Source of the DNA: a virus
Virus record (IMG/VR): IMGVR_UViG_3300035698_005085
Coordinates: 1-45,624 of that record
Strand: one strand, 5' to 3'
Length of the DNA: 45,624 nucleotides
Positions 3,261-38,833 of the stretch are shown here, one piece after another. The first letter of the stretch is position 1. Every line of letters starts with the position of its first letter. The position numbers and the translations under genes were made by a program. The notes beneath the pieces were generated by a model, which was not told where the DNA came from, ran no database searches, and was given only the letters and a program-made list of their open reading frames with translations.

Positions 3261-4055
3261 CTACCATCGCCTGTTTCCTTTCATTGTGTTTACATATCTC
3301 ATATTTTCTTTTGCTTTTGTATAAGCCTCAGGAGTTAACTTCTCCACAAAGTACTTATGTGGTGTCTCTGGTCTATTAGTGGCACCCATATCTTTTATGT
3401 TTATATCCAGCTTAGCTACATTTATAGGTAATGCACTATCCATACTCCTAGCATTAGTATCTAATTCACTTACATCTCCCATACCTAGTAGATGTATCTC
3501 CACACCACGTATTTTGTTATCACTCAAAAATTGTGACGTATATCTATATGCCTCTCGTCTACATTGAGACACACTATTAGTTTCCATAGAGGCATGCTTA
3601 AATCCAGAAAGCACACTAAATCTAGATAAACCAACTACACTAATTAATTTACGTCCTATAGCCTTTTCTAATTTAAATAACTCTTTTAAACAATATGACC
3701 ATTCACCAAAGCTTCTTCCTTGAGGCACTACCATGTAATTAAAAGTGCTTTCATTTCCAGTCTTTATTGCCTCTGTAAGGAAGTCTCTTGTTGTTTGTAC
3801 TGTTTTCACTCCATCATACAATACATCTGGAGTGACTATTTCATCTACTCCTAAATCAGTAGCTAACTTCAATAAGTTCGCATTGGTTTCAACTACTCCT
3901 TCTGCTGCACCATTATCTATTATCTTATACATTGTAGAGTTTTTGACATATTCACGATACCTCTCACTACCTGTTAAGTGTGGTAGTACTAATAAGAAGT
4001 CTCCTTCGTCCATTAACTCTAAATGTGGTTCCGGACTTATAAATCCAAATTTCAT
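3261..4055 (-). CDS. dpdA: DpdA-like 7-deazaguanine DNA transglycosylase (TGT superfamily)
   Basis: 264 residues, SD GAGGTG before ATG. DpdA proteins exchange guanine in DNA for a 7-deazaguanine base, as TGT does in tRNA. Visible TGT-like features are I-I-D-N-G-A (Asp47), V-T-P-D-V-L-Y-D-G (Asp77), V-V-P-Q-G (109-113), V-G-L-S-R-F (141-146), H-L-L-G-M-G (188-193) and A-R-S-M-D-S-A (Asp206) at the end of the barrel. It lacks the tRNA-binding PUA domain and is near the size of phage DpdA rather than cellular TGT. FolE, QueD and QueE in the same leftward region support this role. Which of Asp47, Asp77 or Asp206 is the nucleophile cannot be decided here. Confidence 0.75.
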   Translation of the reverse strand: MKFGFISPEPHLELMDEGDFLLVLPHLTGSERYREYVKNSTMYKIIDNGAAEGVVETNANLLKLATDLGVDEIVTPDVLYDGVKTVQTTRDFLTEAIKTGNESTFNYMVVPQGRSFGEWSYCLKELFKLEKAIGRKLISVVGLSRFSVLSGFKHASMETNSVSQCRREAYRYTSQFLSDNKIRGVEIHLLGMGDVSELDTNARSMDSALPINVAKLDINIKDMGATNRPETPHKYFVEKLTPEAYTKAKENMRYVNTMKGNRRW

Positions 4056-4058
4056 CTC

Positions 4059-4334
4059 TTACACCTCATCTAATCTTTGTGCCAAATAGTTGCAGTAGTT
4101 AATTGTGTCAACTAATTGGTCACGCATACTCTTAACGTCAGCTTTACTTAAGTCACTATAGTCTTTCCTGTTAGTCATAGGCTTTAATCTACTTAACTTC
4201 ATAAGTATTATATCCACATGACTCTGTAATCTTAACTGTCTCCAACTGACCCCATACTTATTTCTCTTCTGTAGGAAGATTAACTTGCACTCCTCTACTA
4301 CCCCATCGTACTTTCTTTTGTCCTTTGTTATCAT
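4059..4334 (-). CDS. Nucleotide modification associated domain 1 (DUF1599) protein
   Basis: 91 residues with SD GGAGGAG. The pattern K-Y-G-V-S-W-R-Q-L-R-L-Q-S-H-V-D-I-I-L-M-K, then a C-terminal L-V-D-T-I-N-Y-C-N-Y-L, matches DUF1599/Nmad1, an all-alpha domain found with phage DNA-base modification genes. It precedes DpdA by 3 nt, so the two are probably coexpressed. Its biochemical role is unknown. Confidence 0.65.
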   Translation of the reverse strand: MITKDKRKYDGVVEECKLIFLQKRNKYGVSWRQLRLQSHVDIILMKLSRLKPMTNRKDYSDLSKADVKSMRDQLVDTINYCNYLAQRLDEV

Positions 4335-4461
4335 CTTTCTCCTCCGGTATAATAACTCTTATCTCTTCACAAACTTCACACATCTCATCATCATAATGTA
4401 GGTGATAAAAATTATCACTCTTACAAATACGAGACGATAGCTCCGTTTTCATTGTCTTCAT
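4258..4461 (-). CDS. Small acidic/zinc-binding-like protein
   Basis: 67 residues (64 from the second ATG at 4452), with Cys13, Cys28 and Cys31 and several His (H-L-H-Y-D-D-E-M-C-E-V-C). The Cys/His pattern suggests metal binding. It overlaps both neighbours (41 nt upstream, 77 nt downstream) and its SD is weak. No family recognised. Confidence 0.4.
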   Translation of the reverse strand: MKTMKTELSSRICKSDNFYHLHYDDEMCEVCEEIRVIIPEEKDDNKGQKKVRWGSRGVQVNLPTEEK

Positions 4462-4765
4462 TCACTTCACAGAATACACATTTATCTTTGTATTTAAGTT
4501 TCATATGTTTCATTATCTTTTCTGCTATCTGTTCGCAACTATACTCAAAGTGTTGCCCTGCTAACACTAAGCCTATGTAAACATCTAAATCTTTCTTAAC
4601 TGTAAAGAATTCTAATTCTCTATTACTATCGTCAACGTCTAATCCTACTTTAACGTGGAACATGTGCCTATGCCAACATCGTAAAAACCCTACGTCTTTT
4701 GGAGCATCTACCCATCTATGAAATGCAGGGAATCTACTCTTTACATATATTACTTTTGACACCAT
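4421..4765 (-). CDS. Conserved phage protein, QueD-like His pattern, unknown function
   Basis: 114 residues, SD AAGGAGG. F-H-R-W-V-D-A-P-K-D-V-G-F-L-R (15-29) followed by W-H-R-H-M-F-H-V-K-V (31-40) and R-E-L-E-F-F-T-V-K-K resembles an uncharacterised family I know from many tailed phages but cannot name. The H-R-H-x-F-H-V pattern recalls the H-G-H motif of 6-pyruvoyl-tetrahydropterin synthase/QueD, so a tetrahydropterin-synthase-like fold is possible. That link is inference. It lies between FolE and DpdA. Confidence 0.55.
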   Translation of the reverse strand: MVSKVIYVKSRFPAFHRWVDAPKDVGFLRCWHRHMFHVKVGLDVDDSNRELEFFTVKKDLDVYIGLVLAGQHFEYSCEQIAEKIMKHMKLKYKDKCVFCEVNEDNENGAIVSYL

Positions 4766-4950
4766 TTTAATAAAGCCTCCTTATCTTTTAATTCTTGTAT
4801 TCTTATCTCATTGAATTCTAACTCAATGTCTAACTTAGTAGCGAGAGCATTGGGTTCTACTACAGTGAGAGGTCCTAACACAACTCTAATTAAGTCATCG
4901 TGAGCTCTCTCACGTTCGTATCTATCTTTAATCTGTTGTACTGTCTTCAT
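4750..4950 (-). CDS. Small hypothetical protein
   Basis: 66 residues, SD GAGGGATGA before ATG 4950. Charged, mostly helical (I-K-D-R-Y-E-R-E-R-A-H-D-D-L-I). It overlaps the next gene by 16 nt, consistent with translational coupling. No family recognised. Confidence 0.55.
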   Translation of the reverse strand: MKTVQQIKDRYERERAHDDLIRVVLGPLTVVEPNALATKLDIELEFNEIRIQELKDKEALLKWCQK

Positions 4951-5374
4951 CTATCATCCCTCTCAATTTATCTAACTGCGTTTGTGTAAGGTCACTAACG
5001 TTAATAAGTCTTCTCTGTTTAGGTTTCTTACCTTTCTTTTTATATTGCTTTTTTAGTCTCTCTCTTTGTTTTTCAAATGTGACTATGACATCTTCCATAG
5101 CAGTCATCTCTACTCCTTTAAAAGCATCACTTAGAGGTTTGTGTTGTTTCTGAACTTCGTGAATGTCTTTAATAGGAGAGGCATTTATCTTTTTTAACTT
5201 AGCTTTACGTCTAGTGTTATCCTTATTGCGTAAATCATTCATGGTTCCTACTAGGTGTCTTTTCTTTCCGCCGAAGAGGTGTTCTACCTCGCTGCCTTTT
5301 GGAACGTAGTCTCCCTCGTTCCAGCTTTCGTTCTTTTCTGTCCATGAATTTACGTTCTTCTTCTTTTGGGTCAT
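4928..5374 (-). CDS. Basic hypothetical protein
   Basis: 148 residues with a near-ideal SD (GAAGGTGA) before ATG 5374. Very lysine-rich, with K-K-Q-Y-K-K-K-G-K-K-P-K-Q-R-R at about 109-123, then a helical C terminus (T-Q-T-Q-L-D-K-L-R-G-M-I). Probably nucleic-acid binding. Its 5' part overlaps the small gene upstream by 140 nt. Confidence 0.6.
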   Translation of the reverse strand: MTQKKKNVNSWTEKNESWNEGDYVPKGSEVEHLFGGKKRHLVGTMNDLRNKDNTRRKAKLKKINASPIKDIHEVQKQHKPLSDAFKGVEMTAMEDVIVTFEKQRERLKKQYKKKGKKPKQRRLINVSDLTQTQLDKLRGMIDEDSTTD

Positions 5375-5465
5375 CTGTCACCTTCTTATACTTCTTATAC
5401 GTGTCACTCTTAGGAATGTCCGTAAAGTATTTTGTATTTGTTCTACTGCGTCTATATTTAGCCAT
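5235..5465 (-). CDS. Small very basic protein overlapping the next gene
   Basis: 76 residues starting inside the folE stop region (ATGGCTAA). Extremely rich in K/R (R-G-R-L-R-S-K-R-Q-R-G-R at about 50-61). The last 46 codons overlap the next gene in another frame, and that gene has the better SD. The N-terminal half is probably real; the C-terminal half could be a by-product of the overlap. Confidence 0.4.
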   Translation of the reverse strand: MAKYRRSRTNTKYFTDIPKSDTYKKYKKVTDDPKEEERKFMDRKERKLERGRLRSKRQRGRTPLRRKEKTPSRNHE

Positions 5466-6075
5466 TTATAAATTCTTGTCTTGTTTTCTCATCTGTAAAG
5501 AACAAGCCCTTCAATGTTGTAGTCTTAGTCTTAGCTCCTGGAGTTCTTACTCCTCTGATAGACATACACATGTGCTCTGCTTCTAATTGAACTGCTACAC
5601 CTGCATTAGGTACATTCTCATCTATGGCTGTAGCAATCTGTTCAGTTAATCTCTCTTGTATCTGTAGTCGTTTAGCAAACACTCTAGCTATCCTGACTAA
5701 CTTAGACAAACCTAACACTTTATTACCCATAGGTATGTATGCAACCTTCATAGTGCCCACAAATGGTATTATGTGGTGCTCACAGAAACTATAAAATGGA
5801 ACGTCTTTAACCATAACCATGTCTCCTACACTTTCAAGGATACCATCATCAGTCATTATATTCTTATCCATAGGTGTGTTAAATAGTTTAATGTGCTTTT
5901 GAATATCTTCATCATATCCCATTAAGATGTCTTTATACATTCTCCAAACTCTATCTGGTGTCTCTACTACACCTTCTCTCTTAGGGTCATCACCTATACA
6001 CATAATTATAGTTTGTATAGCACTCTTAAACATTTCTTCTTTAGTTAACTCTCTCGTCATTGTATCTTTTGTCAT
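5458..6075 (-). CDS. folE: GTP cyclohydrolase I
   Basis: 205 residues, normal family length, SD GGGAGG. Converts GTP to 7,8-dihydroneopterin triphosphate, the first step to 7-deazaguanines. Motifs: E-T-P-x-R-V (38-43), S-F-C-E-H-H-I-I-P-F-V-G (Cys98, His101 as zinc ligands), L-G-L-S-K-L-V-R-I, L-Q-I-Q-E-R-L-T-E-Q-I-A, and H-M-C-M-S-I-R-G (Cys170, third zinc ligand). This is the bacterial/eukaryotic type I enzyme. Many archaea use MptA or a type IB enzyme instead, so a viral type I copy is notable. With QueD and QueE it would feed DpdA. Confidence 0.93.
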   Translation of the reverse strand: MTKDTMTRELTKEEMFKSAIQTIIMCIGDDPKREGVVETPDRVWRMYKDILMGYDEDIQKHIKLFNTPMDKNIMTDDGILESVGDMVMVKDVPFYSFCEHHIIPFVGTMKVAYIPMGNKVLGLSKLVRIARVFAKRLQIQERLTEQIATAIDENVPNAGVAVQLEAEHMCMSIRGVRTPGAKTKTTTLKGLFFTDEKTRQEFING

Positions 6076-6145
6076 TGTTTCTTGCCTCCCTGGTATGATT
6101 CATAAGCTCTAGGGCTTATACTCTTTACTAATTCTTTCTGTTATA

Positions 6146-6622
6146 CTACTGTCTTTTGCCATTTTGGTATTGTCCATCGTATGTACCTGCAGCATCTGCT
6201 TCCATAAAGAATATCTGCATTATCCTAGTGTTCACTTCTAATTGTAAATTGTGCATTGGGTATATAGTATTAGTAAACTTTCCTTTGTATCCACTATCAA
6301 ACACACATCCTTCAACCATTATACCCATTCGATTTAATGTACTTCTTTGTTTAGTTAAAGCCATTACGTCTTTAGGAATGTTAACTTCTTCATTAAATTC
6401 AACAGCATAAGGTTGTCCTGTTTCTAAGTGCCACACATTACTAATTGGTTTCAATTCAACCAATATTGGCATCATTTTATAAGTGGTACCTAATGCTGCT
6501 CTACCTTCTATTGTCCATATCTTAGCTGCAGTGCAGTCAATACCATTCTGTTGTATTTGGTCTACATTAAGTAAACCTTTGATTGCTCCTCCCTTATATA
6601 TTTTCTGTGGGTTTAATATCAT
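6146..6622 (-). CDS. dCTP deaminase/dUTPase superfamily protein
   Basis: 158 residues, SD AAGGTGA. Motifs: Q-Q-N-G-I-D-C-T (24-31), R-S-T-L-N-R-M-G-I (93-101), V-F-D-S-G-Y-K-G-K-F (107-116) and the C-terminal G-T-Y-D-G-Q-Y-Q. The family deaminates dCTP and/or hydrolyses dUTP. In Dcd the general base Glu follows the D-P-G-(W/F)-x-G loop (C-I-V-L-E-F), but here that stretch reads K-F-T-N-T-I-Y-P with no Glu. The dUTPase-type Asp of motif 3 (Asp109) is kept. So dUTPase-like activity is more likely than deamination. Expected role: limiting dUTP in viral DNA. Confidence 0.8.
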   Translation of the reverse strand: MILNPQKIYKGGAIKGLLNVDQIQQNGIDCTAAKIWTIEGRAALGTTYKMMPILVELKPISNVWHLETGQPYAVEFNEEVNIPKDVMALTKQRSTLNRMGIMVEGCVFDSGYKGKFTNTIYPMHNLQLEVNTRIMQIFFMEADAAGTYDGQYQNGKRQ

Positions 6623-7200
6623 AGTCCTTTCACCTTTTCTAATAGTCCGGAAGCTTTTAACTTCTCTAATCTTTTTTCATTTGCTTTCTTTTGATGCCAC
6701 GTCTGTTTAATTACTGGCTCTAAGTTTTTCTTTTCTTGTAACACTAGCTTACCTTTCTCCTCATCTTTGTTCTCATAAGGAAATCTAACCCATGTGTCTT
6801 TAATTGTAAACAATTTATAGTCTGCTTTAAATTTAGAATGTTCTTTCTCAACTACAACGGCAGTCTTAACAAACTTAGGAAAATGCATTTTGATGTGTGG
6901 AATTAATACACCCAACGTTACTCCTGTATCGTTTATATCGTCCACAACTAGAGCACTCTCCATTGGTCTATCATACACCATAGAGTATTCAATGTTATAT
7001 TTTATTTTTGCTTGTGCTCCTTTATGATAACTCTTAGCAGACACCACTGCTAAAGGTACACCTAGTTTATGACTAATTATGAGTCCTGGAATCAATCCAC
7101 CTCTGTTAATTGCCACAATGTAACTAAATGGTAACTTAGGAATGCTATCTGCTAACTTATAACAGTAAGAGATAAACTTATCCCATTCAATGTCAATCAT
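6619..7200 (-). CDS. Type I phosphoribosyltransferase (purine-base type)
   Basis: 193 residues. The PRPP-binding motif A-L-V-V-D-D-I-N-D-T-G-V-T-L (83-96) is clear, preceded by I-N-R-G-G-L-I-P-G (31-39), as in Gpt/HPRT-like enzymes. W-V-R-F-P-Y-E follows the core as in xanthine/guanine PRTs, then a basic C-terminal helical extension (about 165-193). It would join a purine base to PRPP. In this cluster it may salvage guanine/xanthine or act on a free 7-deazaguanine base; the latter is inference. ATG overlaps the stop of a 42-residue ORF upstream (GAATGATTG). Confidence 0.8.
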   Translation of the reverse strand: MIDIEWDKFISYCYKLADSIPKLPFSYIVAINRGGLIPGLIISHKLGVPLAVVSAKSYHKGAQAKIKYNIEYSMVYDRPMESALVVDDINDTGVTLGVLIPHIKMHFPKFVKTAVVVEKEHSKFKADYKLFTIKDTWVRFPYENKDEEKGKLVLQEKKNLEPVIKQTWHQKKANEKRLEKLKASGLLEKVKGL

Positions 7201-7325
7201 TCAAAACACCTTAATGCTTGTTTATCAGTCAATGGTGTAGTCTTAATAAGTGCAATACCATCTATTTTAAATAGCTTCGTAAGCTTCTCATACTTACCTG
7301 TTTTTGTATCAAATATTAGTTTCAT
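7197..7325 (-). CDS. Small hypothetical protein
   Basis: 42 residues, strong SD AGGAGGAAAGA-ATG at 7325. Begins M-K-L-I-F-D-T-K-T-G-K-Y and ends A-L-R-C-F-E. Its stop overlaps the phosphoribosyltransferase ATG, so the two are translationally coupled; its start lies inside the 3' end of the upstream gene. No family recognised. Confidence 0.6.
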   Translation of the reverse strand: MKLIFDTKTGKYEKLTKLFKIDGIALIKTTPLTDKQALRCFE

Positions 7326-7551
7326 TCTTTCCTCCTATTAATTTGTATCCATCCATTATCTGTTGATACAATGGCAAATACAATTTAACTACATCGTTCT
7401 TGAATTCATATCTTGTAGTGTGATAGTTTAACAAGTGTTGGTCTAACTCTCTCTCAGCTAACTCAAATCCCCATCTTGCTTGTTGTGGATTAGTTTCTAT
7501 TCTTGCTTCTGATTTATCTACTAAACTTATTATGTCTCTTATGTTACCCAT
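7309..7551 (-). CDS. Small hypothetical helical protein
   Basis: 80 residues, GGAGG about 12 nt before ATG. Mostly helical and acidic/basic mixed (W-G-F-E-L-A-E-R-E-L-D-Q-H-L). Ends G-G-K-N-E-T-N-I, over the SD and start of the next gene. No family recognised. Confidence 0.6.
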   Translation of the reverse strand: MGNIRDIISLVDKSEARIETNPQQARWGFELAERELDQHLLNYHTTRYEFKNDVVKLYLPLYQQIMDGYKLIGGKNETNI

Positions 7552-7552
7552 T

Positions 7553-7660
7553 TTAATACAACTCCTCCACTGCTTTAAGTATTTGTGATAGTTTAACTAA
7601 ACCTAGGATACAAAGGAATATAAGCAAAAAAAATAAAAAATAAATTAATTGTGTTGACAT
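7553..7660 (-). CDS. Single-pass membrane micropeptide
   Basis: 35 residues: M-S-T-Q-L-I-Y-F then a strongly hydrophobic stretch (residues 5-22) and a short charged tail K-A-V-E-E-L-Y. ATG lies inside the end of the collagen-like gene; the SD is weak (GGGAT). Its last codons supply the GGAGG used by the next gene. Short, so moderate confidence. Confidence 0.45.
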   Translation of the reverse strand: MSTQLIYFLFFLLIFLCILGLVKLSQILKAVEELY

Positions 7661-8397
7661 TCTATCCCATTTGGATAACATGTCCAATCGTTGAAGTAAA
7701 CTATTTCATTAGTTCTCTGTGCTTTGTGTTGTGCTGCAATTAAATCTACTTCTGTAGCAGATAATCCACCTACTACTTGTATTCCCCATAACCTATCTTG
7801 TAAGTCATCATATTCACTTCTTGGAACAAACATTGTTCTTAAGAAATCTGTAAACTCACCATATAGGAATTCTAATGCGTGTGACCTTTTCCATCCACCA
7901 TTTCTATCAACTCTCCATGAGTCTTCATTGGCTTCAATAAAAGCATTTGTTGCTAATATATCGTCTTCATTGTCCTCAATGTCGTCTTCATTATCACGGA
8001 TAGCACGTTTATTTTTACCAATTAAATGGAATTGAATCATTTCTATGAAAGGGTTAGCGTCTTCTCCATCTTCACCGTCTTCTCCATCCTCTCCATCTTG
8101 TCCATCAATACCTGGTTTACCATTGTTTCCATCTTTACCGTCTTCACCAGTTTCTCCCTGTTCTCCCTGTTCTCCCTGTTCTCCCTGTTCACCAGTTTCT
8201 CCTTGTTCTCCTGCTGGTATATTATTTATCTGACCTTGTAGGTCTTCGATGTCGTCATCTAAGTCATCTACTGCGTCTTGAACTTCTTGCTCATTACATG
8301 ATGGATAATGTCCCCAACCACAATCAACATTTGTTGCTACTACACTCACAGTCATAAGAATTACAACCATAAGTGTTACTACTATTGTTTTATTCAT
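7645..8397 (-). CDS. Secreted collagen-like protein
   Basis: 250 residues with SD GGGAGG. Residues 1-22 form a Sec signal peptide (M-N-K-T-I-V-V-T-L-M-V-V-I-L-M-T-V-S-V-V-A). Cys26 and Cys34 follow, then an acidic coiled coil (about 36-60) and 17 uninterrupted Gly-X-Y triplets (63-113), mostly G-E-Q and G-E-D. A second acidic coiled coil (R-D-N-E-D-D-I-E-D-N-E-D-D-I, about 134-147) and a C-terminal domain with a Cys pair complete it. Collagen-like repeats in phages usually make trimeric fibres, but this gene lies among early genes. A role at the infected-cell surface, such as adhesion or superinfection exclusion, is therefore as plausible as a fibre. Confidence 0.75.
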   Translation of the reverse strand: MNKTIVVTLMVVILMTVSVVATNVDCGWGHYPSCNEQEVQDAVDDLDDDIEDLQGQINNIPAGEQGETGEQGEQGEQGEQGETGEDGKDGNNGKPGIDGQDGEDGEDGEDGEDANPFIEMIQFHLIGKNKRAIRDNEDDIEDNEDDILATNAFIEANEDSWRVDRNGGWKRSHALEFLYGEFTDFLRTMFVPRSEYDDLQDRLWGIQVVGGLSATEVDLIAAQHKAQRTNEIVYFNDWTCYPNGIECQHN

Positions 8398-8399
8398 AT

Positions 8400-8576
8400 T
8401 TAATACCTCCCATTATTTTTTCTATGCATCTTATAGAATGGCCATACGTTGTTTGTAGTAACCATTCTGTTAACTATACTCTTTAAAGTAGTAGTGCATA
8501 CTGCACACACATATCCTAACTTTGCTTTGTGACCGTACACATCTCTACCACATCTTGGGCATTTTTCAGTTATCAT
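8400..8576 (-). CDS. Zinc-ribbon microprotein
   Basis: 58 residues, SD GGAG 7 nt before ATG. One C-P-R-C (6-9) and one C-A-V-C (24-27) pair form a zinc ribbon, followed by a helical tail with N-N-V-W-P-F-Y-K-M-H-R-K. Stop is 2 nt before the collagen-like ATG. Confidence 0.65.
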   Translation of the reverse strand: MITEKCPRCGRDVYGHKAKLGYVCAVCTTTLKSIVNRMVTTNNVWPFYKMHRKNNGRY

Positions 8577-8659
8577 TCTTTAACTCCGTTTTCGTTTAAT
8601 GCGTCAAATAATCGATTTAAACGATTCTTTTTCAAAATGTATATTTTATCTTGGACCAA
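8573..8659 (-). CDS. Possible 28-residue peptide
   Basis: TTG start with SD GAGG about 6 nt upstream; ends L-N-E-N-G-V-K-E with its TGA overlapping the next ATG (ATGA). Spacing and coupling support it, but the length and rare start keep confidence low. Confidence 0.3.
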   Translation of the reverse strand: MVQDKIYILKKNRLNRLFDALNENGVKE

Positions 8660-8675
8660 TTATTTCCTCGTTAAA

Positions 8676-9266
8676 TCAAATGTATGATGACTTTAACGTA
8701 AAATCTAAAATCTTTTTAGACATTGATTTGTTGGGTTCTATTAAAAAGAACCAAGACGGACCATTCTCAGTCGTTAAATAGATGTCGGTAGTAATGTTAT
8801 GTATCTCTCTAAAGACGTCTATTGCCTCTCTCACACTCTTTAACTGATAGTCATGCCCACACATAACGCCACCCTTTTTTAACTTAGGGTACCAATCGTT
8901 TAAATCTCTCAATATACTCTTATATGTGTGACTTCCATCAATGTAAACCCAATCAAAAAAACTAGTAGGAAATATCATAGCTGCTTTCTCGTGTAACATC
9001 TTTAGTATCGAAACATTAAAAGCATCTCTATGTTCTCTAACTACTTTAACACATTCCATCATTCTTTGCCACTGCTTCTCGTCCTCCACTTTAGATGAAC
9101 TTTCTTGCCACGAGTGGTGTTCCCAACAATCAATTAAATAAAGATGTTTACCTTCCCACGACTTTAATATCATTTCACTAAAGGTTCCTTTCCTCACTCC
9201 TAGTTCTATTCCACTTCCTAGTAAGTTTAATTCGTTAAATAAGTAACCTAATTGACTTCGTTCCAT
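8676..9266 (-). CDS. Class I SAM-dependent methyltransferase (Methyltransf_24-like)
   Basis: 196 residues from ATG 9266, chosen because AGGTG lies at good spacing and the preceding QueE gene stops there; an upstream ATG (9329) would overlap QueE by 62 nt. SAM-binding motif G-I-E-L-G-V-R-K-G-T-F-S-E, then L-Y-L-I-D-C-W-E, and F-D-W-V-Y-I-D-G-S-H-T-Y (metal/substrate loop), followed by L-K-K-G-G-V-M-C-G-H-D-Y. This is the pattern of CmcI/macrocin-O-methyltransferase-like enzymes. Being coupled to QueE and QueD, it may methylate the deazaguanine base or nucleotide. Sugar O-methylation is the alternative. Confidence 0.7.
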   Translation of the reverse strand: MERSQLGYLFNELNLLGSGIELGVRKGTFSEMILKSWEGKHLYLIDCWEHHSWQESSSKVEDEKQWQRMMECVKVVREHRDAFNVSILKMLHEKAAMIFPTSFFDWVYIDGSHTYKSILRDLNDWYPKLKKGGVMCGHDYQLKSVREAIDVFREIHNITTDIYLTTENGPSWFFLIEPNKSMSKKILDFTLKSSYI

Positions 9267-9267
9267 T

Positions 9268-9939
9268 TCATACACCTGTTGTTTTATCCCAGATAACACA
9301 CTGCAATCTATCTGAGTAATTAAATCCATGAACCTTGCAGAGGTGTGCTACTTTTTTTCTAATGACAGTACTACTAGGACTATTATCTATTAATTCTGGC
9401 ATTAACCATATTTTTCTTTTTGGTATAAAACACTCTTGTTGCATTTTAATGACTTCCATTATGTCCTGTCCATCAGATATAACAAACTTAAATACAACAT
9501 TCTTTTTATTAGCATACTCTGTTAATATGTGTTTCTTGTACCTTAATTTTTCTTTGACTCCACTATTGGCTAACTTGGGGGAGCAATTTATGCGGTTGAA
9601 CAGGTATACATCGTCAAAAGGTATTGCTATTGTGCCATTAGTTTCTATTTCTACTCTCATGTGAGGTATATACTTTATTAACTCATTAATACCTTTCATT
9701 TGTAATGTAGGCTCTCCACCAGTTATAACTAATCTATCACACACATTTAACCATTCGTTATCATAACAAAGGTCGAATATCTCTTTAGTTGACATTTCCT
9801 TACCTTTTTTCCATACTTCTGTTGTGTCACACCATTTACAATTTAAGTTACAATTTTGTAACCTTAAGAAGATTGCTGGTCTACCCATTGTAGGGCCTTC
9901 TCCTTGTATTGAATAGAATAGTTCACTAACCTTTAACAT
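9268..9939 (-). CDS. queE: 7-carboxy-7-deazaguanine synthase, radical SAM
   Basis: 223 residues, SD GGAGAGATGA. Converts 6-carboxy-tetrahydropterin to 7-carboxy-7-deazaguanine (CDG). N-terminal S-I-Q-G-E-G-P-T-M-G-R-P (10-21), then C30-N-L-N-C34-K-W-C37-D-T, the CX3CX2C cluster of radical SAM enzymes, and I-T-G-G-E-P-T-L. The C-terminal L-M-P-E and Q-C-V-I-W segments are also typical of QueE. The start overlaps the queD stop by 14 nt, giving a queD-queE-methyltransferase operon. Confidence 0.93.
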   Translation of the reverse strand: MLKVSELFYSIQGEGPTMGRPAIFLRLQNCNLNCKWCDTTEVWKKGKEMSTKEIFDLCYDNEWLNVCDRLVITGGEPTLQMKGINELIKYIPHMRVEIETNGTIAIPFDDVYLFNRINCSPKLANSGVKEKLRYKKHILTEYANKKNVVFKFVISDGQDIMEVIKMQQECFIPKRKIWLMPELIDNSPSSTVIRKKVAHLCKVHGFNYSDRLQCVIWDKTTGV

Positions 9940-10357
9940 TTAAATCATCTCTCCTGTTCCATATAGCACAACTAGTTGGAGTTTCCCAAAGCACTAGTTT
10001 ATTTAGTTTAATGTTTTTAAACTTCTCATTCTTACTAAAAGCATACTCTAAACGTTCTGCTATTTGTCCTATCATATTCTCTGCAGTAGTCTGTGTCTTT
10101 TCAAACATAGGCACTTTGTTCAAGAATGAGTGGTCACACTCTTTAATAATGTGTTCATCTACTACTTCTTTTAAGTCATTGAAATTTACCAACATTCCAT
10201 GTGTTAACTCTTTTCCTTTGACATACACTTCTAGTTTGTATGTATGACCATGTAAATGAGCACACTTACCAAATATCTGTTCGTTTTCTAACATCGTAGC
10301 AGTTGTATAGGCTAACCTATGTGCTGAGTCAAAAACGAAGTCTTTTCTTATTAACAT
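9926..10357 (-). CDS. queD: 6-carboxy-5,6,7,8-tetrahydropterin synthase
   Basis: 143 residues with strong SD AAGGAGGG. Makes CPH4 from dihydroneopterin triphosphate. F-D-S-A-H-R-L (His13) and C-A-H-L-H-G-H (His36, His38) give the three zinc ligands with Cys32 as catalytic Cys; E-C-D-H-S-F-L-N (Asp75-His76) and L-W-E-T-P-T (Glu125) complete the active site. All key residues are present, so it should be active. Coupled to queE downstream. Confidence 0.93.
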   Translation of the reverse strand: MLIRKDFVFDSAHRLAYTTATMLENEQIFGKCAHLHGHTYKLEVYVKGKELTHGMLVNFNDLKEVVDEHIIKECDHSFLNKVPMFEKTQTTAENMIGQIAERLEYAFSKNEKFKNIKLNKLVLWETPTSCAIWNRRDDLNVKG

Positions 10358-10617: not shown

Positions 10618-10734
10618 CTATGTAAATAACATCCATATTGTTCCTAGCCCCACCACTACCCCTAGACTAATGACTAAACAAACAAAAGCAAATAAAATAT
10701 TAAACTTATCTCGTAAATATTCTTCCGCATTCAT
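10618..10734 (-). CDS. Single-pass membrane micropeptide
   Basis: 38 residues, SD GGAGGA 7 nt before ATG. N-terminal M-N-A-E-E-Y-L-R-D-K, then one hydrophobic helix (about 12-37, F-N-I-L-F-A-F-V-C-L-V-I-S-L-G). ATG overlaps the stop of the AAA+ ATPase gene (ATGA), so it is coexpressed with it. Confidence 0.55.
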   Translation of the reverse strand: MNAEEYLRDKFNILFAFVCLVISLGVVVGLGTIWMLFT

Positions 10735-12212
10735 TTTAAGTCCTCCTCTGGTATGCCGATAACGTTCTCAGGTCTGTTATCGACTATAGTTTCTTCTTCA
10801 TAGCCTTTGTCTTCTTTGATAGGTCCTGAGTATTCATCTAGTGATGCTTGTTCAACATAATGTTCTTGTTCTTTCCTAGTTTTGTAATAGTCTAATCTAG
10901 GCATTTGTAATAACTTATGTTTGTCACCAGTTATAGGGTCTATAACCTCTGGGTCTGTACAATACCTTCGAATATACTTCTCTGCTATTGTAGGAAAGTG
11001 TTTTCTTACATTCTTTACACATTCTTGTAATACAGATACCCAATCTATTTCAAAGTTAAACTCAAGTATATCGCCTGCTTTGTACATTGTAGCAGAACTA
11101 TACTTCATCTTATCAACATAACCTATGTCTGCTAACTGATTAAGGTGTTTAGTACACATATGTTGACTTACTGTTATTCCAAACTTACGTAGTTCTTTCT
11201 GAACAGACTTTCTGTCCATCTCTCCTCCAGAGCCTTTTACTACTTCTATTATCTTTCTTTGTAGTGCTGAGCACTTTAAAGAAGTCTCAATTAGAATACC
11301 CCCAAAGATTCTATGGTTCTCATACATATCTTGAGGTGTTATAAGCATAAATTTTCTTTCATTCTTTTTGAATTTCATTCTTTGCTTATAGTAGAATCTA
11401 GCAATCCCATACGTATTGTGTAAGTACTTTGGAAAGTCTCTCCTACTGTCAGAAAAGTATTTAGGTATGACATTCATAAAGAGATTTGCTGCAGGATGTA
11501 TGTATTCAAAATCATCAAACTTAGGTAGTGTGTAGATGTGTTCTATCATCTTACCTTTATTATAAGGACTCTCTTTTACTTTTTGATTAGGATTGACAGC
11601 TTGACTAGCTTGCCGTGTTAATACAGCAGCATTTTGTTTAGCAGAGTCATCAGTTCGTATGATGATTAGTCTACTCTTTAGCTCTACTGGCACTGTAGCT
11701 TCGTTCTCATCTGCTAAACAAAAGATGAAAGGTTTTCTAGGCAGAACAAATCTATTGATTATCCTCTGCCCTTCAACCATTGCTGTGTTTTTATACACAC
11801 TCTTTTTCCCTTCTCCCCAGTCTTTTAATGTCTCTAAGAATTCTTTAGGTATCTTATTCAACTCTAGAATACGAACAAATCTACAGTTCGATATTTTCTT
11901 AGCTTGATACCATCCAGATTTATCAGAACCACTTGTAGTAGTAAAGAACTGGCCACTGTTATCCTCACCCTCTGCATTCTCTTCAAAGCCACAGACGGCC
12001 ATTATGTTATCTGTAATCCATGTTTTACCAGAGGCTCTTGGACCTCCCATTAATACACACTCCTCACCTAGTATCCAACTAGTGAATACTGCCATTCGTG
12101 TGAAGTAATCACCTACTATCTTTTCATCTAGTAAGTTATTCACTAAATGTAAAGTAGGTAAGAAACCCATATCAGGGTGTACACTACTTTTATCCTCTGG
12201 AACTACTACCAA
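10731..12212 (-). CDS. AAA+ ATPase, probable MCM-like replicative helicase with C-terminal winged helix
   Basis: 493 residues. Walker A is G-G-P-R-A-S-G-K-T (56-64, Lys63); a Walker-B-like strand is F-V-R-I-L-E-L-N (Glu117); E-L-K-S-R-L-I-I-I-R-T-D looks like the sensor/arginine-finger region after residue 175. The order and the C-terminal winged helix (about 325-390, R-K-S-V-Q-K-E-L-R-K-F-G) recall MCM/SF6 helicases, though the Walker B lacks the usual Asp-Glu pair. Next to PriL and an A/P-rich partner, it probably works in replication. A packaging or transcription ATPase is an alternative. Confidence 0.6.
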   Translation of the reverse strand: MVVVPEDKSSVHPDMGFLPTLHLVNNLLDEKIVGDYFTRMAVFTSWILGEECVLMGGPRASGKTWITDNIMAVCGFEENAEGEDNSGQFFTTTSGSDKSGWYQAKKISNCRFVRILELNKIPKEFLETLKDWGEGKKSVYKNTAMVEGQRIINRFVLPRKPFIFCLADENEATVPVELKSRLIIIRTDDSAKQNAAVLTRQASQAVNPNQKVKESPYNKGKMIEHIYTLPKFDDFEYIHPAANLFMNVIPKYFSDSRRDFPKYLHNTYGIARFYYKQRMKFKKNERKFMLITPQDMYENHRIFGGILIETSLKCSALQRKIIEVVKGSGGEMDRKSVQKELRKFGITVSQHMCTKHLNQLADIGYVDKMKYSSATMYKAGDILEFNFEIDWVSVLQECVKNVRKHFPTIAEKYIRRYCTDPEVIDPITGDKHKLLQMPRLDYYKTRKEQEHYVEQASLDEYSGPIKEDKGYEEETIVDNRPENVIGIPEEDLK

Positions 12213-37112: not shown

Positions 37113-38144
37113 ATGACAAAGAAAAAGTTTGTGATAGTGCCACAGAAGATGACAGAAGGAATGAGAGTGGCATTAAACGAAGTACCAAGAAGAAGTGGAC
37201 AATACAATTGGCTGTGGGCATTAAAACCACAATTTAGAACAGAGATACGACCGTTTATGAATCCTATTGGAGATTGGGACCCAAAAGAAGAACTAGAAAA
37301 GTATGACGTAGTGCAAGTTAATGGTTCTCCAGTAGATTTAAGAATAGTTCCTGAGATAAGGAGAATACTAGGAAATAGCTCAGATACAAAATTAGTTATA
37401 AATAACGATTATGTTTGTGAAGCTTGGGCTAATCACCAAATGCATCCAATGGAATATGATAATTACTTCTCACAAGCAGATATGGTCTTTGGAACAGAAC
37501 CTCAGCAAGTTACACATTTACCTCCTGGTTCATTTGTATTACCTCACCCTACTCCAACACAGTATTTAAAACACGTTGGTCACGATGTAGTGCACAATAA
37601 GATAGGAACTATGCATCACCACTGGGAAGGTGGTAACAACTTAACCGCAGGTTTAGTAATGCATAGATTAAAGAAACAATTTAACTTTACTAGCACTTTA
37701 TTTGCTCATGACCCACAAAGAGATAAGACGGTGAGATGGACACACACAATGTTTGATGAATTAAAGCAATATATGCACTTTCCAGATTTCTTACAACACG
37801 TTGCAAGATTGAGGATATTGTATGACCCTGCCATATCGCACACCTATGGAAGAAATACAGTAGACACTGCTTGCCTAGGAGTTCCTAGTGTAGGTTCTGA
37901 GAGAATCTATTCTATGAAGAAGCTTTGGCCTAAAACGTCATGTAACCCTTTTGATTTAACTAAAACAATAGCACTGATGAAGAGGATATTAACAGATGAT
38001 AAGTTTAAAGAAGACATTTGTGAGTATGCTTATGAGAATGTAGAATACTTCAATTATAAGAATAGTGCAAAAAGATGGCATGCAGCATTTGATACCGCCA
38101 TAGATAGAGGAGGTAGAGATTACTACCAGAAGGTGCTAAAATGA
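37113..38144 (+). CDS. Glycosyltransferase-like protein (GT-B type)
   Basis: 343 residues, SD GAGGTG. N-terminal Rossmann-like (K-K-F-V-I-V-P-Q-K-M-T-E-G-M), D-V-V-Q-V-N-G-S, and C-terminal R-I-L-Y-D-P-A-I-S-H-T-Y-G-R-N-T-V-D-T-A-C-L-G-V-P-S-V-G-S, which resembles the nucleotide-sugar binding E/D-x(7)-E region of GT-B enzymes, where a Thr-Ala-Cys-Leu-Gly-x-Pro segment is typical. Coupled to a methyltransferase. Probably decorates tail or surface proteins with sugar. Confidence 0.6.
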   Translation: MTKKKFVIVPQKMTEGMRVALNEVPRRSGQYNWLWALKPQFRTEIRPFMNPIGDWDPKEELEKYDVVQVNGSPVDLRIVPEIRRILGNSSDTKLVINNDYVCEAWANHQMHPMEYDNYFSQADMVFGTEPQQVTHLPPGSFVLPHPTPTQYLKHVGHDVVHNKIGTMHHHWEGGNNLTAGLVMHRLKKQFNFTSTLFAHDPQRDKTVRWTHTMFDELKQYMHFPDFLQHVARLRILYDPAISHTYGRNTVDTACLGVPSVGSERIYSMKKLWPKTSCNPFDLTKTIALMKRILTDDKFKEDICEYAYENVEYFNYKNSAKRWHAAFDTAIDRGGRDYYQKVLK

Positions 38145-38833
38145 AGCCACGTTTAAAAGAAGACAAGAAAAATGAAACAGAGTTTAAAGTAATGCAGATG
38201 AGTAAAGAACAAATGCAATCTTATTTGGGTGAAGAGAATTGGGAAGCTGCTTACGACCAAGACAACTTAAGGATTGATGAGTTTGCTAACTTTGAAACTA
38301 GAGTTAAAGGTAAATACTACAGATTTAGATACGTCATCAATGAGATAAAAAAGTTAGGTATTGATAATCCAAAGATAATTGACATAGGTTGTCAAGATGG
38401 TGTTCTAATGAAGATGTTAATAGATGCTGGATTTAAAAGAGTCACAGGTATTGACATCAGTCAGAAGACATTGGATAGAGCAAAGATAAATTTGAAATTA
38501 CCAGATTATGCTTTTATTCAAGGCGATATTAACAATGAGAAGTTTGAAATACCAAAAGCAGATATAGTTGTTTCAGTACAAGTAATGGAACATCTTGTAG
38601 ACCCTAAGTTGTTTATTAAAAGGTTATGGGAGGCTACAGAAGTGATGATGATTGTGACAACTCCTATAGAACAGAATTTAAAAGATGCATTACATTTGAG
38701 TACATTTAATTTTTACGATTTGTGTCACTTAATGAGACCACATACAAAAGATTTCAAAGTAACACAGATTCATAAATACCAGCAAAATGCGAAAGCAAAC
38801 ATTTTCGCATTAAAGGCTATGAAACCGAGGTGA
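38141..38833 (+). CDS. Class I SAM-dependent methyltransferase
   Basis: 230 residues; ATG overlaps the previous stop (ATGA). Motif I I-I-D-I-G-C-Q-D-G-V-L (84-94), G-I-D-I-S-Q-K-T-L-D-R-A (acidic end of beta2), D-I-V-V-S-V-Q-V-M-E-H-L-V-D-P (motif II, UbiG-like). Coupled with the glycosyltransferase, so it probably methylates a sugar or protein side chain of the virion. Confidence 0.8.
   Translation: MKPRLKEDKKNETEFKVMQMSKEQMQSYLGEENWEAAYDQDNLRIDEFANFETRVKGKYYRFRYVINEIKKLGIDNPKIIDIGCQDGVLMKMLIDAGFKRVTGIDISQKTLDRAKINLKLPDYAFIQGDINNEKFEIPKADIVVSVQVMEHLVDPKLFIKRLWEATEVMMIVTTPIEQNLKDALHLSTFNFYDLCHLMRPHTKDFKVTQIHKYQQNAKANIFALKAMKPR

Follow-up and report, generated by a model that had tools for sequence, protein, structure and literature searches.

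We found that a viral genome record, IMG/VR IMGVR_UViG_3300035698_005085, encodes FolE, QueD and QueE together with a DpdA-like DNA guanine transglycosylase and a small QueD-fold protein, here named QDL, which seems to take the place of QueC. The window analysed here is the entire record (45,624 bases), and these genes lie on its minus strand within positions 3261-10357. In the reading that we consider probable, the virus would make its own 7-carboxy-7-deazaguanine (CDG), QDL would decarboxylate it to 7-deazaguanine (DG), and DpdA would insert the latter into DNA (dDG). Sequence and structure support the assignment of the enzyme families, the folds of the transglycosylase and of QDL (QueD type), and the finding that QDL and QueC exclude each other. 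The original prediction had proposed a QueC-free set whose DNA base would be either CDG (dCDG) or preQ0 supplied by a host QueC. The QueC-free set stands. The choice between these two bases leaves out QDL, and a base processed by QDL is now the better guess.

No match to the QueC profile (PF06508), which detected QueC in 12 of 14 control genomes, and none to the QueF/QueF-L profile (PF14489) was found in the window record, so that the predicted lack of both genes holds for the entire viral record, itself possibly a fragment. Among 80 loci selected solely for their QueE, 22 carried QDL, 22 carried QueC and none carried both; QueF was never found together with QDL in the QueE loci. A Pfam check of whole records recovered QueC in 20 of the 20 records called as QueC bearing and in none of the 22 QDL records. 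There was one weak partial QueC match in 43 further QDL records, and no QueC match over the cut-off in the 24 records of the window DpdA family. When the QueE set was dereplicated at 60% identity, sisters with QDL and with QueC were merged and a single QDL locus remained. Plain Fisher tests are therefore non-independent, and a tree-based test was used instead. In the QueE tree (109 rows), with contrasts taken among rows with QDL or QueC on well-supported branches, all nine independent QDL-QueC contrasts were opposite (p = 0.004), the tree being a quick build with some long branches and support by the Shimodaira-Hasegawa-like approximate likelihood ratio test (SH-aLRT) only. The same replacement can be seen between two collinear sister phages, where one (L127, 282-5045) has QDL and a transglycosylase at the position at which the other (L128, 7072-12469) has a transglycosylase and QueC, while their flanks share 80-98% DNA identity (98% at queD). 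Likewise, the Cellulophaga phage phi38:2 carries QueC and an annotated QueF but not QDL, and phage phiST carries QDL but not QueC. These comparisons support the view that QDL takes QueC's place across viral loci.

The QDL gene (4421-4765, minus strand; 114 aa), a candidate CDG decarboxylase, is separated from that of DpdA by two small open reading frames (ORFs). It matches phrog_17812 (E = 1.5e-15) and, weakly, the QueD-like phrog_2389. Its AlphaFold (AF2) model had a predicted local distance difference test (pLDDT) score of 96.5 and could be superposed on E. coli QueD with a template modeling (TM) score of 0.86. The top five matches of the QDL profile in the PDB were all PTPS/QueD structures, and 21 of the 67 family members matched Pfam PTPS weakly. 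All 67 sequences share H16, H32 and H34, which match the zinc triad, and the C-terminal E103, together with a set of QDL-specific invariants (R49, E52, S76-C77-E78, D104, E106 and N107). The catalytic cysteine that precedes the HxH motif of QueD and the Asp-His pair were not among the invariants of these 67 sequences. Since it does not keep the catalytic residues of QueD and has invariants of its own, QDL is a divergent QueD relative and not a second QueD. We also rejected a role as a replacement of QueD, because most of the QDL loci carry QueD as well.

A scan of viral contigs returned 438 relatives of QDL, 80 of which were used for QDL-centred counts. FolE, QueD or QueE was found in 78 of these 80 loci, and all three were found in 49. 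A transglycosylase-like protein of one of three disjoint families was present in 100 of 106 QDL loci: the window family in 32, the phrog_887 family ("queuine tRNA-ribosyltransferase") in 43, and a 458-aa family, judged similar to tRNA-guanine transglycosylases (TGTs) by eye only, in 25. The same families of DpdA occur with QDL in some loci and with QueC in others. Synechococcus BUCT-ZZ01 and Rhizobium RHph_I1_18 are, like phiST, cultured phages with QDL. Fourteen genome assemblies of bacteria and archaea (L190-L203), including Methanosarcinales METP1 and Nitrosopelagicus bins, also have QDL on contigs, with FolE, QueD or QueE nearby in 8 of them; these are probably viral contigs or proviruses. 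One of them, binned to a Methanosarcinales metagenome-assembled genome (L193), carries QDL with FolE, QueD and QueE and could be viral. A homologue of the Vut_1-type transporter, from a putative preQ0 transporter family, occurs in a subset of QDL loci (L060:10189-10860 and 16 others).

The transglycosylase gene (3261-4055, minus strand; 264 aa) matches phrog_20335 (E = 2.1e-10). By sequence alone, the protein had no Pfam or NCBIfam match and no PDB sequence match of note, and a scan of viral contigs with this single sequence did not find relatives. Homologues were found in Cellulophaga phage phiST and Chryseobacterium phage MA9V-3, inside FolE/QueD/QueE clusters, and a scan with a profile of three members gave 22 further viral loci. 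The AF2 model, made from 23 aligned sequences, had a mean pLDDT of 92.3. Its first match in the PDB was DpdA 7ui4, a DNA preQ0 insertase (E = 1.5e-6), followed by TGTs, and the top 50 matches were all DpdA and TGT structures, supporting a TIM-barrel fold of the TGT type rather than another barrel family. Nine residues are invariant in the 23 sequences (D47, D77, Q112, G142, S144, H188, L190, G191 and D206), and the conserved motifs DN(G/S)A, PD, PQG, GxS, HxLG and DS follow the TGT order. These invariants putatively correspond to the catalytic and base-binding residues of TGTs, a mapping made without superposition. The model thus supports the assignment of the 264-aa protein as a DpdA-type DNA guanine transglycosylase, and its fold backs the DNA-modification reading of the original prediction. 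Most relatives in this DpdA family encode, near QDL and DpdA, a small AAA/kinase-like protein that the window lacks (L001:9520-9999 and 23 further loci).

The genes assigned to CDG synthesis were identified by profiles, similarity to solved structures and motifs in the translations, which agree with one another and with the original calls of intact active sites. FolE (5458-6075, minus strand; 205 aa) is a GTP cyclohydrolase I that matches Pfam GTP_cyclohydroI (E = 2.9e-64), the NCBIfam folE equivalog above its cut-off and GTP cyclohydrolase I in the PDB (E = 4.8e-44), and has the active-site motifs SFCEHH and HMC. QueD (9926-10357, minus strand; 143 aa), the 6-carboxytetrahydropterin synthase, matches Pfam PTPS (E = 1.5e-32) and PTPS/QueD structures, with C-HLHGH, CDH and ET motifs. 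QueE (9268-9939, minus strand) is a radical SAM protein that matches phrog_2076 ("QueE-like"; E = 5.5e-52) and CDG synthases in the PDB and carries the CX3CX2C motif as CNLNCKWC; its best NCBIfam matches are QueE families, yet under the equivalog cut-offs. By these features the three genes are genuine and intact, and they provide the CDG-making part of a predicted viral 7-deazaguanine DNA-modification pathway.

In the proposed route, FolE would convert GTP to dihydroneopterin triphosphate, QueD would make 6-carboxytetrahydropterin, and QueE would make CDG. In the established pathway CDG, the product of QueE, is the substrate of QueC (PMC6884629), which yields preQ0. QDL stands in for QueC in loci that retain FolE, QueD and QueE, and it is therefore best placed at the same node, very likely acting on CDG. 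By analogy, a QueD-like pocket, in which a glutamate holds the pterin-like ring and zinc sits near the side chain, would suit this substrate. Removal of the carboxyl group would be the simplest reaction, with no further cofactor needed, which makes DG the probable product. The DpdA-like transglycosylase would then exchange guanine for DG, very probably in DNA rather than in RNA, and dDG would presumably shield the viral DNA against host restriction. Cui et al. in 2023 reportedly described dDG and dCDG in phage DNA, DpdA subfamilies 3 and 4, and a predicted CDG decarboxylase, DpdL. A route to dDG that includes a predicted decarboxylase thus seems to have been published already.

The end product could instead be dCDG, with DpdA inserting the CDG of QueE directly and QDL serving as an accessory, for instance in CDG binding or delivery. 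FolE, QueD and QueE are enough to make CDG, the record has no QueC, and CDG was raised for a QueC-less phage by Hutinet et al. 2019 (PMC6884629). Still, QDL has retained a metal site and, as in an enzyme, a large number of invariant polar residues, nearly all loci of the DpdA family carry it, and CDG as an end product would need no dedicated protein that excludes QueC, all of which makes dCDG doubtful. The neighbourhood of QDL in its relatives bears on a different alternative, in which QDL acts on CDG but gives a C7 derivative other than bare DG (for example, one with a hydroxyl handle) that is then glycosylated. A family of GT-B-like glycosyltransferases is encoded next to QDL in some 70 loci besides L026 (10364-11530), L051, L131 and L132, with 20 of 24 members matching Pfam Glycos_transf_1. 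Among the 63 QueE loci with such a gene, 58 have QDL and 5 do not, and none was found together with QueC in the control set. All glycosyltransferase-QDL pairs lie on one strand, 36 of the 75 less than 100 bp apart. This suggests a glycosylated 7-deazaguanine in the phages that carry the linked gene. The window itself has no such glycosyltransferase, no redox partner was seen, and QueD relatives are not known to reduce carboxylates; for this virus, a C7 derivative of that kind is improbable.

A third possibility is that a host QueC supplies preQ0 and that the virus inserts it. QueC was detected in archaeal control genomes, and some viruses that encode DpdA alone use host preQ0 (PMC6884629, PMC8651126). 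On the QueE tree, however, QDL and QueC are mutually exclusive, and they are swapped along with the transglycosylase, so the QDL viruses do not look like preQ0 users that merely lack QueC, and host preQ0 has little probability. It is even harder to see the gene set as serving folate synthesis or the modification of host tRNA with queuosine or archaeosine. FolE and QueD are common to pterin pathways, and TGT and DpdA are homologous, but among solved structures the transglycosylase comes closest to DpdA, a DNA enzyme, and a relative in Immutovirus is annotated as a DNA guanine transglycosylase, by annotation only. With its 264 aa the protein would also hardly accommodate the C-terminal zinc-binding portion of a tRNA TGT. 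We regard this last explanation as highly improbable.

Several observations weigh against decarboxylation of CDG followed by insertion of DG into the viral DNA. The T-fold of QDL could support a C7 reaction other than the predicted decarboxylation, and the glycosyltransferase linked to QDL in many relatives would need an attachment point that is not evident on bare DG. Identity between the window DpdA and its relatives is only 21-30%, the profile of this DpdA family had no match at E <= 10 in the records of CAjan, HVTV-1 and HCTV-1, and the viral record may be incomplete. A broader but less probable view is that QDL is a widespread viral enzyme converting CDG into a 7-deazaguanine form new to the chemistry described for these viruses, in a QueC-independent branch, with glycosylation in many phages and the window as an archaeal-virus case without the sugar.

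An ORF at 4059-4334 (minus strand; 91 aa), also overlooked in the first reading, encodes a DUF1599 ("nucleotide modification associated domain 1") protein (Pfam PF07659, E = 1.5e-10, above the cut-off). A dCTP deaminase/dUTPase-family protein (6146-6622, minus strand; 158 aa) matches Pfam DCD (E = 3.8e-19) and NCBIfam PRK02253 (E = 3e-34), and its gene is common in related loci (24 of 109). Beside it lies a xanthine/guanine-type phosphoribosyltransferase (6619-7200, minus strand; 193 aa) that matches Pfam Pribosyltran (E = 5.3e-18), with a xanthine phosphoribosyltransferase as best NCBIfam match (E = 1e-17); this type also occurs within other FolE/QueE/QDL loci (e.g., L025, L026, L077 and L083). 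The latter enzyme could salvage the guanine freed by DpdA; given the transglycosylase, a nucleotide-level route through it was considered but not retained. Between QueE and FolE lies a 250-aa ORF (7645-8397, minus strand) with G-x-y repeats like those of collagen and a hydrophobic stretch at its N terminus. Two methyltransferase-like proteins are encoded in the window, at 8676-9329 (minus strand) and 38141-38833 (plus strand), with matches to Methyltransf_24/TylF and Methyltransf_11; the gene at 8676-9329 overlaps the QueE gene at the latter's end, and no counterpart turned up in relatives.

The virus is probably a tailed virus of archaea. A terminase, a portal and a major head protein of the tailed-virus type are encoded on the plus strand of the window. 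The AAA+ protein at 10731-12212 had matches in 53 phage records, 52 of them bearing the names of Halorubrum, Haloarcula or halophage viruses and the remaining one "Hardygib1". These names support an archaeal host, in line with the original prediction; the terminase had matches in bacterial as well as archaeal viruses. When the first 20 kb were compared with phages by megablast, nothing matched, so the host can be inferred only through this one replication-type protein, and a scan of viral contigs with the window terminase alone did not find relatives. A halophilic host is unlikely given the G+C content of 35.6%. No terminal repeat was seen in the 45,624-base record, which may be a fragment of the virus genome.

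These results place a 7-deazaguanine route that dispenses with QueC in what is probably a virus of archaea, and the tree-controlled comparison suggests that the choice between the preQ0 branch and a different base rests with a single small protein of the QueD fold. Most worth following are the fact that QDL excludes QueC and, in relatives, the glycosyltransferase linked to QDL, which points to a possible further base. Among known systems, Cellulophaga phage phiST (HQ634192) resembles the window in its QueD-QueE-FolE genes, a QDL homologue (30% identity), a DpdA of the same family and the lack of QueC. It differs in its bacterial host and in the MazG-like and kinase-like genes beside its QDL, where the window has the DUF1599 protein and the phosphoribosyltransferase. 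Chryseobacterium phage MA9V-3 also shares FolE, QueD, QueE, QDL and a DpdA homologue (28%), but its QDL is fused to an endonuclease VII-like domain (L002:10647-11528). The dPreQ0 pathway of Enterobacteria phage CAjan (Hutinet 2019, PMC6884629) has FolE, QueD, QueE and a transglycosylase in common with the window, while it includes QueC and a putative preQ0 transporter and no QDL. HCTV-1 and HVTV-1 are haloarchaeal tailed viruses that share QueE with the window, and their records are without QDL and the window DpdA family. HCTV-1 further encodes FolE (GTP cyclohydrolase I) and QueD, along with QueC and QueF, and FolE is among the genes listed for archaeal tailed viruses (PMC8651126); contrary to what had been proposed, FolE is thus not unusual in an archaeal virus.

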